Under the pieces are notes generated by a model. The model made no database searches. It saw only the letters and a list, made by a program, of their open reading frames with translations, and was not told the origin of the DNA. Shown in pieces: positions 52,178 through 58,067 of a stretch of DNA of 64,000 nt. Positions within the stretch are counted from its first letter, which is position 1. Every line of letters begins with the position of its first letter. This DNA comes from Deltaproteobacteria bacterium (GTDB taxonomy: Bacteria > Desulfobacterota_D > UBA1144 > Nemesobacterales > JAJCZQ01): assembly GCA_029262335.1 (NCBI GenBank), contig JAJCZQ010000026.1, forward strand, positions 1 to 64,000. The letters run 5' to 3'. The translations under genes and the position numbers were made by a program.

Positions 52178-53491
52178 ATAAAAACTTTAATCTTAATTCT
52201 ATTAATTATATTTATTCCTATAAATTCTCTTTTAGGGCAGTCTATAACTTCTAAGTTCAGATCAACTTCCACAAGGGAAAGCTTTAATCCAAATGACCCT
52301 CCCGAGACAAGAATCCCGATTGCCCCTTACCTCACATTTGGTGCACAGATAGAACTCGAAGTAATATTTGAGCATAACTTTGACCTTGATGATAATGAAA
52401 AGGACGACATTTACACCCTCGTACCTGAACTGTCTCTTGCCCTGTCTTATGATCCAAACAGGCATATACAGATTTTTGCCAACCTTGTCGGAAATGCGGA
52501 ATTCATATGGGAAAACGGCGTAAATAATAATGAATACACTCTCGAATTTGAACAGCTTTATATACTGTTTAAAAATCTTTTAAATGATAGGTTTGCACTT
52601 CAGATCGGCAGGCAAAGGTTTGAGGATGAAAGGCAATGGCTCTACGAAGCTGAGCTTGACGGTGTTAGGGGATTTTTTCTTTACGATGATTTTTTTACTG
52701 AATTTTCTGTTACAAGGGGCGGCCTTGTGGACAGGGACCTGCTAAATAATGATGTAGCGGATAAAACTAATAACTATATATTCAGCAGTTCATACGAATT
52801 TGCTGAAGACACTCTTGCGGGTATTTACCTTGTTTACCGTAATGACACCACAAGTGAAAACGACAGCCCCTTTTTTATTGGGTTTCACTCCGAAGCCGAA
52901 CTCACAGACGAACTTGAGTTTTGGGCTGATGCTGCATACGTAACCGGTAACGATGGTGACAATGAAATAAGCGGATTCGGTTTTGATGTGGGAGCTGTTT
53001 ATTCATTTGATACTTTTTTTGAGCCCTATATAACACTGGCTTATGCATTTGGAAGCGGAGACGGTAATGCCGAAGATGGTAAAGACAAGAATTTCCGCCA
53101 GACCGGACTCCAGGGAAATGAAGGTGATTTTAACGGTGTGGTAGATTTCCTGTATTACGGCGAGGTATTTGATCCTGAGCTAAGCAATATGTCGATTATT
53201 ACAGCAGGACTGGGTATCAATCCTACGGAAGAAAGCTCAATTGATATTATTTATCACCACTACAGACAAACAAAAGCATCAGCCGAACTTAGGGAATCAG
53301 CTATTGAGGCAGAACCAGACGGAGTAAATAAAAGCCTTGGAAATGAGATTGACCTGATACTTGGTTATGAAGGTTTTGGTGAGAGAATTGCCGTAGGAAT
53401 ATTCTTTGGCTATTTCATCCCGGGTGATGCATTCCCCGAAGCTAATGGCAATGCTTTTTTAAGTAGAATAATAATGGAATATGAGTTTTAA
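52178..53491 (+). CDS. Outer-membrane porin, alginate-export (AlgE)-like; non-canonical ATA start or mutated ATG
   Basis: Open frame extends upstream of the track start (52727): (ATA)KTLILILLIIFIPINSLLGQSITSKF...LQIGRQRFEDERQWLYEAELDGVRGFFLYDDFFTEFSVTRGGLVDRD...; CGGGA 7 nt before ATA; ends SRIIMEYEF. Confidence 0.75.
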   Translation: MKTLILILLIIFIPINSLLGQSITSKFRSTSTRESFNPNDPPETRIPIAPYLTFGAQIELEVIFEHNFDLDDNEKDDIYTLVPELSLALSYDPNRHIQIFANLVGNAEFIWENGVNNNEYTLEFEQLYILFKNLLNDRFALQIGRQRFEDERQWLYEAELDGVRGFFLYDDFFTEFSVTRGGLVDRDLLNNDVADKTNNYIFSSSYEFAEDTLAGIYLVYRNDTTSENDSPFFIGFHSEAELTDELEFWADAAYVTGNDGDNEISGFGFDVGAVYSFDTFFEPYITLAYAFGSGDGNAEDGKDKNFRQTGLQGNEGDFNGVVDFLYYGEVFDPELSNMSIITAGLGINPTEESSIDIIYHHYRQTKASAELRESAIEAEPDGVNKSLGNEIDLILGYEGFGERIAVGIFFGYFIPGDAFPEANGNAFLSRIIMEYEF

Positions 53492-56139
53492 TCTGTAAAA
53501 ATATTTTCTTTATTTTTTTGAAATATTTCCTTCCAAAGTTCATAACCTTTTCTGCTCATATGGAGCTGGTCCGGGGTAAATAGTTCATCCCTGACATTAC
53601 CATTTGAATCCAGCATTTCACTAAATACATCCAGATAACAGGTATACGGTTCATTTGAAAGGAACTGTCTTATAAGACTATTGGATGCTTCTATTCTGTC
53701 AATAAATGAATATCTTGCGGGACTGGGTTTAATCGATACAAATGTAAATTTAGCTGTCGGGTATTTTTCTCTGAATTTATAATAAAAAGCCACAAACGAA
53801 TTTAGTATCTGCTTTGGGACTTTGCCGTCACCAATGTCATTGTCACCTGCATAAAAGACAAGTGACTCTAAACTCTTTTGTCTGAAAAGCCTGTCAAAAT
53901 AGTGCCTGCAGTAATCAATTCTTGACCCGCCAAATCCAAGATTTAAAATATCATAATCTTCAAGGTCTTTTTTTAGCCCGTTCCATAACCTTATTGTAGA
54001 ACTGCCGTAAAAAATATACTTCCTTTCCGGACTTCTTTTTATTTGTCTTTCAAGGATCCTGATATCTTTTTCAAAAAGGTTTTTGTCTATTACAAAAGGG
54101 GCCGTTTTTACTTTTTCAAAAAAACTTAAATTAATTTTAGAATTCTGTATCTCCGAGGCCTGTTCCACAGCTTCACTGATATAAGACCTGTATTTTTCTC
54201 TATAACCGGATAAAAATTCAAAAAGCATTTCCCGGCTGTCCTTATTACCATTGAGTATTTCAGAGATCCTGAAAGGTTTTTTTATAACAACTGATAACAC
54301 ACTCTGGTTTATCCTTTTATCAAAATTGGCTATCGCAATGGGAACAATTAAAGGTTCCGGTTCGATGGAAAGGGCGAGCGAAAAAGCACCCGGTTTAAAT
54401 TCTCCGGGAGAAAGGTCCGTACTATGGCTTGTGCCTTCAGGGCTGAGTGCCAGGCTGACTCCATTTTTGATATAACTCCCGGCGGTTTTATAAAAGTTTT
54501 TCCTTCTTTCTATTTTATCACTCTTTGATTCTTCAATAAGCTCTGACTCTTTTGTATATACGTTTATATGCCCAAGCCTTTCATAATAGTTTTCATGCCC
54601 ATACTCCTCGGCCTTTGGCACCCTGACCACCCTGATTGAAGGAGAGCCGTATTTCTTATAGAGGATCATCGAACTGATAAAATGAGAATCAAGTGTAATC
54701 TGGAAATTGTTTGGAAGGGTATTGTAGGGATGATTTACAAGATGGTTATAAATAAAAATATTACCGGGACTGTCCGGCAAATTATCCCAGCCTGTAATTA
54801 TATGGGGGACATTTTCAAATATTCCAATAAACTGCTTATCTGCAGACTCCCTTATTTCTTCCTCGCCAAGTTCCGAAGGTGCCTCTGTAACAGACTGGTA
54901 AACATGTTTAAGGCCCGCAAAGAAAGAGTATTCTTTATAGACTTTTCCGAGGATATTCAAAATTAACCGTGCAATCCCCTTTTCGAGGGCTTCACCATTT
55001 TTTTCGAGTTTAAAAAGCAGGTTAAATGCGTCATCAAGTGTTAGCGGACTGTTCAGTAAGTGCGGCACCTTGTGAAGACCGGAATTAACACTGAGCTGGG
55101 TTGAGTTCTGCTCAATAATGTTTCTTACCGCTATAATTTCTCTCTCATAACTGTTTGATATAAGCCCGGCCCTTGCATTTCGGAGCCTAATTGACACTAT
55201 CCACAACAGTCTCTTGGCAAGTGAAAGGGAAAGTTCGGGAGTATTGTTAATAACCTTATCAATATCTGCTTTACTAATATGATAAATCACAGAATCCCTT
55301 GTAGCGGCCAGGGTAATATCATTTGTCATACCCGATGCCCCGCCTGCCCAGCCGACAACATAGCCTGGTGTGTCGATAAAACTGATTACTGATGATTCTT
55401 CTATAGTTAACTCCCTGTTCTCTTTATCCTTATGAAAACAGATCGCGGTATTTCCGTACGCAAGCAGATATAGGCCATCAGCCTCTTCCTCCTGCTTATA
55501 AATAATATCACCCTTTATATACCACCTCTTCTGGGCGACCTTTGAGAGTTTTCTAATTATGGCTTCCGGGAATACTTCAAAAAAGGGTGAACTTCGAAAA
55601 AGTGCCAGTGCCTGCGGAACAACAATATTATCTACCGGATTCAGAAACCTGTATTTGCTGCCAATTTCGTGTTCCCAGTCCGCATTGTTAAGACCGGCGA
55701 GCTGGTCACGTACATGAGAAAGCAGATCCAGGCTCTTGTTTAAAATAAAGAACACAAATTCACAGCCCAGGGACGGCTCCTGTTCAAAGAACTGTTCAAG
55801 GTTGTCGTGGGACCATTTTATAAAAACACTTTTTTCCTCGCACCTGACAGTTGTTGCATAACGCCTCGGGTGCCTGAATCCTGACCAGCCTATTGGGGTA
55901 AATTTTTTAGTGCTTTTTCCCACTGAAAACTCATCTGACTTGTCCTCAACACTGATACTGAAATTAACGTGGCCTTCCAGGAGGAAAAAAAGAGAGTGGC
56001 TGTTTTCATACTGCCTGGAAATTACATGGCCTTTTGATACTTCGGTAATTTCGGCAATCCTTGCCAGGAATTCAATTTTATTTTTATCAAAATTATTTGC
56101 GAATGGAAGTGATTTTATTATCTCTATTTTGTTATACAT
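53488..56139 (-). CDS. Multidomain fusion: two cNMP-binding-like domains, PlsC-like acyltransferase, SGNH/GDSL hydrolase
   Basis: CNB-like GHVISRQYENSHSLFFLLEGHV and GDIIYKQEEEADGLYLLAYGNTAI; PlsC-like SPEGTSHSTDL...FKPGAFSLALSIEPEPLIVPIAI; SGNH YIFYGSSTIRLW, LGFGGSRI, VFYAGDNDIGDG, FTPDQLHMSRKGYELW. Track start 56178 gives a 13-aa longer N-terminus. Confidence 0.82.
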   Translation of the reverse strand: MYNKIEIIKSLPFANNFDKNKIEFLARIAEITEVSKGHVISRQYENSHSLFFLLEGHVNFSISVEDKSDEFSVGKSTKKFTPIGWSGFRHPRRYATTVRCEEKSVFIKWSHDNLEQFFEQEPSLGCEFVFFILNKSLDLLSHVRDQLAGLNNADWEHEIGSKYRFLNPVDNIVVPQALALFRSSPFFEVFPEAIIRKLSKVAQKRWYIKGDIIYKQEEEADGLYLLAYGNTAICFHKDKENRELTIEESSVISFIDTPGYVVGWAGGASGMTNDITLAATRDSVIYHISKADIDKVINNTPELSLSLAKRLLWIVSIRLRNARAGLISNSYEREIIAVRNIIEQNSTQLSVNSGLHKVPHLLNSPLTLDDAFNLLFKLEKNGEALEKGIARLILNILGKVYKEYSFFAGLKHVYQSVTEAPSELGEEEIRESADKQFIGIFENVPHIITGWDNLPDSPGNIFIYNHLVNHPYNTLPNNFQITLDSHFISSMILYKKYGSPSIRVVRVPKAEEYGHENYYERLGHINVYTKESELIEESKSDKIERRKNFYKTAGSYIKNGVSLALSPEGTSHSTDLSPGEFKPGAFSLALSIEPEPLIVPIAIANFDKRINQSVLSVVIKKPFRISEILNGNKDSREMLFEFLSGYREKYRSYISEAVEQASEIQNSKINLSFFEKVKTAPFVIDKNLFEKDIRILERQIKRSPERKYIFYGSSTIRLWNGLKKDLEDYDILNLGFGGSRIDYCRHYFDRLFRQKSLESLVFYAGDNDIGDGKVPKQILNSFVAFYYKFREKYPTAKFTFVSIKPSPARYSFIDRIEASNSLIRQFLSNEPYTCYLDVFSEMLDSNGNVRDELFTPDQLHMSRKGYELWKEIFQKNKENIFTD

Positions 56140-56461: not shown

Positions 56462-57610
56462 TCAACCGGTAAAACGTTTTTTTAAAAATAAATAAAAACC
56501 CGGTAAAAAAGAGATAATAAAAGTTAACGGCATAAGTGAAGTTATTCCATAAATAAAATCCATACCACTCCCGGGCTTGTTACCCATTGCGGCAAATCTG
56601 AGTTTATTATTTTCTTCAATACCTAAAGTACCCGGAGTGTTCTCAACCCATTTGATTCTCTGAAACCAGTCCAGAAGTTTTCCGATTGAAACAACTACTC
56701 GGTGAAACATATTTTTATAGTCATAATAAACTGTATTCATTTTTGATTCGGGATATATAAAGACTATATAAAGCACCATCATTTGAAGGGAGAATGTGGC
56801 AACTCCTATTGTCAGGTCAATTCCAAGATGCAGGATAATTCCCATCAAAATTGTAAACCTTCTCAGTCTTGGTATCCATAAGCCAAAAGCCAGCAGGCCT
56901 TCTGCAAACAATGTAAACGGGCCGAGTGACCTCCAGAAATATTCAAGGTATTCACCACTTAGAGCTGAGTTTATAAAGTCCGGGAAATCACCCCTGATTG
57001 TTCTTTCACTCAGGAACAACAGTATGATATCGCCGGAAAGCCAGGAGTAATTTAGTTTCTGAATAAAACTAAAACTGTAAACAATACTAATCAGCACCTG
57101 TAAAAGTCTTATTGGTAGGATTTTACCCTTTTTATTTTTATTCTTATAAATTAAGGAATCAATGCTGTAATGGTCATTGCATCTGCTGAACCCAAGTATC
57201 AGCATTACAATGACAAATAAAAAAGTGTGGTGATGGTAGTTGAACTGGCTAAGAAAAAAAAGGTATGCAAAGGTAACAGAAATGAAAATACCTATATACC
57301 TTGTAAAAATCCCGAGTATAAAAAACACTGAGGCAATAAGTAAAAGTTCTTCTAAAAATTGGTAATGAAACAGATCAGGTACCGGGAGCCATTCAAATCC
57401 GGGCACAGGATTTACAAAACCATCAAAATGATAATTCTTTAATGAGGGAAAACTGTACTTAGGAAAACGAAACCACATCTCACCTGGTCTTTGCAGATTA
57501 TGAAACCCTGTAAGTTTAAAGAAAAAAACAGTTCCAAAAAATATTCTAAGGAGGCAAAGACTTTGACGCGACCTCTCATCAAACCAGAATTTGTTCCATT
57601 TATTTATCAA
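56462..57610 (-). CDS. HTTM-domain (vitamin K-dependent gamma-carboxylase-like) membrane protein
   Basis: SRQSLCLLRIFFGTVFFFKL...YHHHTFLFVIVMLILGFSRCNDHYSID...LLQVLISIVYSFSFIQKLNYSWLSGD. Confidence 0.8.
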   Translation of the reverse strand: MINKWNKFWFDERSRQSLCLLRIFFGTVFFFKLTGFHNLQRPGEMWFRFPKYSFPSLKNYHFDGFVNPVPGFEWLPVPDLFHYQFLEELLLIASVFFILGIFTRYIGIFISVTFAYLFFLSQFNYHHHTFLFVIVMLILGFSRCNDHYSIDSLIYKNKNKKGKILPIRLLQVLISIVYSFSFIQKLNYSWLSGDIILLFLSERTIRGDFPDFINSALSGEYLEYFWRSLGPFTLFAEGLLAFGLWIPRLRRFTILMGIILHLGIDLTIGVATFSLQMMVLYIVFIYPESKMNTVYYDYKNMFHRVVVSIGKLLDWFQRIKWVENTPGTLGIEENNKLRFAAMGNKPGSGMDFIYGITSLMPLTFIISFLPGFYLFLKKRFTG

Positions 57611-57617
57611 TATAAAT

Positions 57618-58067
57618 TTAGTCCCCTGGTTGTTCAGGATATTCTATTACAACAAAAGTAGTTCCTTCATTGTTCTTTGAAAAATTGAGCCTGCTGTTAA
57701 TCCTGTATAATAATTCGGCCCTGAAGGTATTAAAGTCCTCATCTATTTTTTTATTGTTATACATATAGCGCGTATAATTTCTTATCCACGACCGAAGGGC
57801 CCCATCGGAATACCTTGTCTTTCCGCTTCTCTTTAATTTTTTTCTTACTTTACCGCTTAGTTCCTTACCGGGTTTATATCTTACTTTTTCACCGTTCTCT
57901 TTGACCCAGTAATAGTTGACCTTAAATGCGACCTGTTTTGAGAATGTACCCCAGCCGTACCTGTTATCATCGGTTACAACCGACCTTACTCCGAGGGGTA
58001 TTAATATGACTATCAGGAGTATTATTGGAATATTCCACCACCACCTGATTTTCTGTTTTTCTTCCAT
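57618..58067 (-). CDS. Membrane-anchored hypothetical protein immediately upstream of HTTM gene
   Basis: Single N-terminal TM (WNIPIILLIVILIPLGV), 149 aa, 7-nt gap to the HTTM gene. Confidence 0.7.
   Translation of the reverse strand: MEEKQKIRWWWNIPIILLIVILIPLGVRSVVTDDNRYGWGTFSKQVAFKVNYYWVKENGEKVRYKPGKELSGKVRKKLKRSGKTRYSDGALRSWIRNYTRYMYNNKKIDEDFNTFRAELLYRINSRLNFSKNNEGTTFVVIEYPEQPGD

Follow-up and report, generated by a model that had tools for sequence, protein, structure and literature searches.

The window analyzed here is a 64,000-nucleotide stretch (positions 1 to 64,000 of contig JAJCZQ010000026.1, assembly GCA_029262335.1) from a member of the Dadabacteria, and it contains a gene whose product joins two cyclic nucleotide-binding (CNB) domains, a PlsC-type acyltransferase and an SGNH hydrolase in one polypeptide (hereafter, the fusion). 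The gene occupies 53488-56139 as a single unbroken minus-strand open reading frame (ORF), with an ATG at 56139 and 883 amino acids (aa) plus a stop; translation could instead begin at a TTG located 13 codons further upstream, but homologues begin where the ATG lies. It is present in a single copy in its 2.09-Mb genome. Pfam searches recover cNMP_binding (PF00027, 2.7e-15, in two stretches) and Lipase_GDSL_2 (PF13472, 2.4e-9), both above the gathering score, as well as a divergent PlsC-type acyltransferase (PF01553) that falls just under the gathering score with the whole protein (2.4e-4) and above it with the isolated domain (4.7e-5). These matches and the conserved architecture bear out the four modules and the order in which the initial annotation had listed them, including its CNB and PlsC assignments (the latter marginal for the whole protein). 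All of the sequence motifs that it quoted are found in the ORF, and a fusion ORF with two CNBs, an acyltransferase and an SGNH domain is confirmed as real. Missing from that list was a helical segment (aa ~330-435), apparent in the structure model, which matched no family when searched alone against Pfam. Confidence in the two structure models is moderate (mean pLDDT 62 and 66, the latter for a model of aa 330-662). No transmembrane segment is apparent in the fusion (maximum 19-residue hydropathy, 1.49), and the protein should therefore be cytosolic or peripheral.

Table 1. Features of the fusion gene in window coordinates (residue i lies at nucleotide 56139-3(i-1) and downwards, on the minus strand)
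Feature	Positions	Strand	Residues	Basis or remark
Whole ORF	53488..56139	-	883 aa	order CNB-CNB-helical-acyltransferase-SGNH
CNB1	55690..56139	-	~1-150	second Pfam cNMP_binding stretch, cassette alignment, tandem-CNB Foldseek matches
CNB2	55165..55614	-	~176-325	Pfam cNMP_binding 205-299, cassette alignment
Helical segment between CNB2 and acyltransferase	54835..55152	-	330-435	structure model, Foldseek 8ia1/1iuq
PlsC/GPAT-type acyltransferase core	54145..54834	-	436-665	PF01553, hhalign to canonical PlsC
Acyltransferase block I, split HX4D	54688..54744	-	H466...D484	hhalign; invariance across two phyla
Block II equivalent GHINVYT	54553..54573	-	523-529	Thr529 at canonical Arg position
Block III PEGTS	54427..54441	-	567-571	Ser571 at Arg position of canonical PEGTR
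Linker	54070..54144	-	666-690	gene split point in G017 and Persicobacter
SGNH hydrolase	53491..54069	-	691-883	PF13472, invariant columns, Foldseek

Among 58 genomes of the phylum searched, the full-length fusion occurs in the window's genome and in 13 genomes of one sister genus, all belonging to the same order of Dadabacteria, and the sister-genus proteins share 58-59% identity with the window's protein from end to end. Between members of the sister genus, ratios of nonsynonymous to synonymous substitution (dN/dS, Nei-Gojobori) are 0.02-0.16 in CNB1, CNB2, the helical segment, the acyltransferase, the linker and the SGNH domain, such that every module is under purifying selection. The full-length homologues in 13 other genomes, together with these low ratios throughout, rule out a chance or chimeric ORF. 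One further genome of the survey, G036, holds only a remnant, left by internal deletion, that retains both ends of the gene without the middle, which suggests that the fusion is dispensable. This remnant sits at the syntenic position (L017, G036:C3, 879-1362) and comprises ~57 residues from the start of the gene and ~90 from its end, out of frame. No homologues of the fusion protein were found among viral contigs, and phages gave no more than weak matches (25% identity), which cover CNB2 and the stretch right after it.

The acyltransferase domain aligns, as a profile, with a profile of 12 ordinary PlsC proteins (hhalign; Prob 98.5, E 3e-15). In this alignment, H466 corresponds to the His of the canonical motif and D484 to its Asp, and the two are set apart by an insertion of 13 residues, LVNHPYNTLPNNF; a weak match to T. 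maritima PlsC likewise pairs H466 with the catalytic NH of that protein. The initial annotation had called the HX4D block atypical, and its spacing does differ, although what looked irregular is accounted for by 13 residues lying between a His and an Asp that are both retained. The nearby H470 is not the catalytic His, as it is replaced by Tyr in one relative. The insertion (within 54688-54744 of the window) hardly varies between Dadabacteria and Bacteroidota and is better conserved than most of the protein. The His, the Asp and the PEGT are invariant across two phyla, as are, over the seven sequences aligned, PEG of block III and VP of block IV. Blocks II and III read GHINVYT and PEGTS here, versus, for example, GHIPIDR and PEGTR in canonical proteins: the Arg of each block is invariant in the 12 ordinary PlsCs, and Thr529 and Ser571 are invariant in the fusion family. 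In plastid glycerol-3-phosphate acyltransferases (GPATs), the phosphate of glycerol-3-phosphate (G3P) is bound by a Lys/His/Arg/Arg pocket (PMC4785142). From the loss of both Arg residues and this published pocket, we infer an acceptor other than G3P or lysophosphatidate (LPA), either of which appears unlikely on sequence grounds.

When the model of aa 330-662 was searched with Foldseek, the plastid GPATs 8ia1 (E 3.5e-4) and 1iuq (4.2e-4) came out on top, followed by the acyltransferases 1k30 and LpxM and then by a next match at E 0.19. The alignments to 8ia1 and 1iuq extend over 342-376 columns and thus cover the helical segment, which, going by this model, is probably the counterpart of the N-terminal helical domain of plastid GPATs. 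Elsewhere, the window's genome has two ordinary PlsC genes, and the fusion is therefore not its housekeeping LPA acyltransferase. The idea that some relatives have lost canonical plsC and depend on the fusion was dropped: the plsC region of G040 (L096, G040:C1:806000-820000), from a long-read assembly with probable indel errors, has broken rpsB, tsf and pyrH in addition to a broken plsC. In a single-contig sister genome (G034:C1), PF01553 matches the fusion only, for which plsC loss and sequence errors are both possible explanations.

Block I of the SGNH domain reads GSS instead of GDS, and the nucleophile Ser714, Gly737/738, Asn767, Asp857 and His860 are invariant in all seven aligned sequences; the catalytic set looks intact, and esterase activity is predicted from it. 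Foldseek relates the domain to sialate O-acetylesterase and PAF acetylhydrolase (TMt 0.70-0.81), the former being closest by sequence among solved structures, and these relatives leave the substrate unsettled.

The canonical phosphate-binding cassette of CNB domains is FGE(L,I,V)AL...R (PMC2246266), and altered cassettes are known to bind other ligands, such as haem in CooA and chlorophenols in CprK (PMC2246266). Alignment with ordinary CNB domains from loci of the study set finds both cassettes of the fusion to be atypical: CNB1 (GWSGFRHPRRYATT) has Trp85 in place of the canonical Glu and keeps an invariant Arg93, and CNB2 (GWAGGASGMTNDIT) has lost both the Glu and the Arg, with Trp264 (Phe in Persicobacter) at the Glu position. 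This Arg is the phosphate-coordinating residue, Arg209 in PKA. By Foldseek, the full model matches the tandem CNB proteins PKG, PKA R and Epac, and, by analogy, ligand gating of the enzyme domains is plausible.

The CNB-acyltransferase and SGNH parts also occur as separate neighbouring genes. In G017, another Dadabacteria genome of the survey, a 697-aa CNB-CNB-acyltransferase gene is followed 17 bp on by a 199-aa SGNH gene, and on a megaplasmid of Persicobacter sp. JZB09 (Bacteroidota), a 655-aa CNB-CNB-acyltransferase gene is separated by 1 base from a 209-aa SGNH gene. Pfam bears out the domains of both pairs, and the Persicobacter acyltransferase covers nearly all of the PF01553 model, above the cut-off. 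Since the split genes are adjacent in both cases, the fusion joins a recurrent gene pair, and this adjacency in two phyla, along with fusion in most members, points to a shared function of the two parts. The tree leaves the order of events unsettled between a single fusion and fission (reversion) in G017. Directly downstream of the G017 pair lies a patatin-like phospholipase gene (PF01734, 5e-34; L020, 320-1360), and ~540 bp upstream of the Persicobacter pair lies a PAP2-family phosphatase gene (2.6e-13; L032, 3617-4477).

Upstream of the fusion gene and on the same strand, the window encodes an HTTM-domain membrane protein (56462-57610, 2e-19) and a small protein without clear family (57618-58067). 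In the sister-genus locus that was examined (L007), neither of these two genes adjoins the fusion, whose neighbours there are housekeeping genes and not defence genes.

Our preferred reading, to which we give slightly less than even odds, is that the fusion remodels acyl lipids as a two-headed enzyme, soluble and cytosolic, whose activity is allosterically controlled; the activities, substrates, ligand and coupling that this entails are those that we infer from the domains. The tandem CNB domains would bind a small ligand other than ordinary cAMP or cGMP, or respond to a partner, and this response would make the catalytic part more or less active. The SGNH domain would take an acyl chain off an ester via Ser714-Asp857-His860, and the PlsC/GPAT-type domain would use a thioester donor (acyl-acyl carrier protein or acyl-CoA) to acylate a hydroxyl group on an acceptor, lipid or polyol, other than G3P or LPA, with H466 as the general base and D484 as its partner. 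One polypeptide would then both remove acyl chains from a single class of molecule and put them back. Lipid acyl transfer and hydrolysis, as predicted activities, fit both enzyme families, and we count the lipid-enzyme neighbours of the split pairs (patatin in G017, PAP2 phosphatase in Persicobacter) toward a lipid role. A bolder version, which we consider doubtful, is a single-chain lipid editing switch in which the CNB tandem, with a non-cAMP ligand, would select between SGNH deacylation and reacylation by a new PlsC subfamily, one that has gained an acceptor loop by insertion and lacks the phosphate-binding Arg; the acceptor would lie outside those of known glycerolipid acyltransferases.

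Several points weigh against lipid remodelling under allosteric control. The structure models that inform it are only of moderate confidence, the 13-residue insertion could distort the acyltransferase active site, and the CNB domains may serve only in structure or dimerisation. Many substrates of the SGNH superfamily are not lipids, and sialate O-acetylesterase is among the closest solved relatives of this domain. No operon is conserved around the fusion across genomes, and the neighbourhood thus lends no pathway context; one relative (G036) has lost the gene and can do without it; and we know of no experimentally studied member of the family.

The rival explanations differ from the preferred reading in the signal, in the acceptor or in whether the enzymes work at all. 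The initial annotation spoke of a ligand-gated enzyme and named cAMP and cGMP as ligands to assay, and a fuller form of that proposal would have a cyclic nucleotide bind both CNBs and switch a PlsC-like LPA acyltransferase and lysophospholipase acting on glycerophospholipids. Both CNBs do pass Pfam, CNB1 keeps the phosphate-site Arg93, and class III cyclases (PF00211) are present in the window's genome (one) and in G017 (two). Yet the cassette Glu is gone from both CNBs and the Arg from CNB2, blocks II and III are without the Arg residues that LPA/G3P acyltransferases have there, and PF00211 detects no class III cyclase in any of the 14 sister-genus genomes (other cyclase classes were not searched), although 13 of them keep the fusion intact. 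Gating by cAMP or cGMP thus fares poorly and we consider this form of it unlikely, the regulating signal being probably not ordinary cAMP. It is very improbable that the CNBs sense cCMP or cUMP as in Pycsar defence, with the lipid-acting domains serving as a membrane-attacking effector: CNB1 matches PADLOC Pycsar TIR-effector models over their CNB (6e-10 to 2.5e-7), but this CNB domain is broadly shared, and the Persicobacter protein has no PADLOC match. Other Pycsar parts are lacking at the window locus (no TIR, no transmembrane effector and no cyclase neighbour), the sister genus has no cyclase by PF00211, and its examined locus has housekeeping rather than defence neighbours. A plasmid search with CNB1 for Pycsar kin returned Persicobacter only.

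A possible, if less probable, alternative is that the molecule acylated and deacylated by the pair is not a lipid but a sugar, a peptide or a small metabolite, as in secondary-metabolite or surface-sugar tailoring. The loss of the phosphate-binding Arg residues, which makes G3P or LPA an improbable acceptor, suits this explanation, as do the sequence proximity of the SGNH domain to sialate O-acetylesterase and a stand-alone SGNH relative near sugar genes in Agrobacterium; set against these are an acyltransferase core of the glycerolipid PlsC/GPAT type, the lipid-enzyme genes near the split pairs, and the phospholipid-acting PAF acetylhydrolase, which is also among the closest SGNH folds. That the protein is instead a regulator or scaffold with one or both enzyme domains catalytically dead would accord with the interrupted HX4D, the lost Arg residues and the marginal PF01553 scores, but is quite unlikely given that the acyltransferase His, Asp and PEGT and the full SGNH catalytic set show no variation between the two phyla and that dN/dS is low in the catalytic modules.

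All modules of the fusion come from known superfamilies; what appears new is their combination and the split-HX4D acyltransferase subfamily. Phospholipases joined to CNB domains occur in eukaryotes (PMC2246266), and no described protein with the four-part architecture, nor the split-HX4D subfamily, was found in the literature searched, a search that did not extend to InterPro or CDART. If acyl-lipid remodelling by the fusion holds true, a single chain in which acyl transfer and acyl hydrolysis are both under direct allosteric control would represent a new means of tuning lipids, an idea that can be tested directly because the catalytic residues of the protein are clear. The family also has a PlsC-type active site in which HX4D is interrupted by an insertion, a form that escapes standard motif scans. 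Dadabacteria, known mainly from sponges, seawater and sediments, are to our knowledge a candidate phylum without a model organism, and the Persicobacter pair offers a version of the system from a cultured strain.

Compared with known systems, the fusion belongs to the same superfamily as PlsC (PF01553) by profile and keeps the His, Asp, PEGT and VP blocks, but differs in the insertion inside HX4D, in the substitution of Thr and Ser for the block II and block III Arg, and in an acyltransferase without a transmembrane segment that is joined to CNB and SGNH domains. With the plastid GPATs (squash 1IUQ, Myrmecia 8IA1) it shares a soluble form and a helical N-terminal domain followed by an HX4D alpha/beta domain, a comparison made through the pLDDT 66 model, whereas identity is ~12-13% and the Lys/His/Arg/Arg phosphate pocket is not evident. 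Its SGNH domain resembles the GSS-type SGNH/GDSL esterases of Agrobacterium and Gemmatirosa (FYGSSSxRxW, GFGG, GxND and DxxH; 31-37% identity), which are, in contrast, stand-alone genes. Like the tandem CNB regulators (PKA R subunit, PKG and Epac), it places a tandem CNB fold upstream of an effector, although both of its cassettes are non-canonical, and CNB1 resembles the CNB domain of Pycsar TIR effectors (PADLOC PycTIR), from which the fusion differs in having no TIR and no cyclase partner seen. The CNB-patatin phospholipases of the NTE/PNPLA6 type likewise join CNB domains to a lipid esterase, but with a patatin domain in place of SGNH and without the acyltransferase that the fusion carries.

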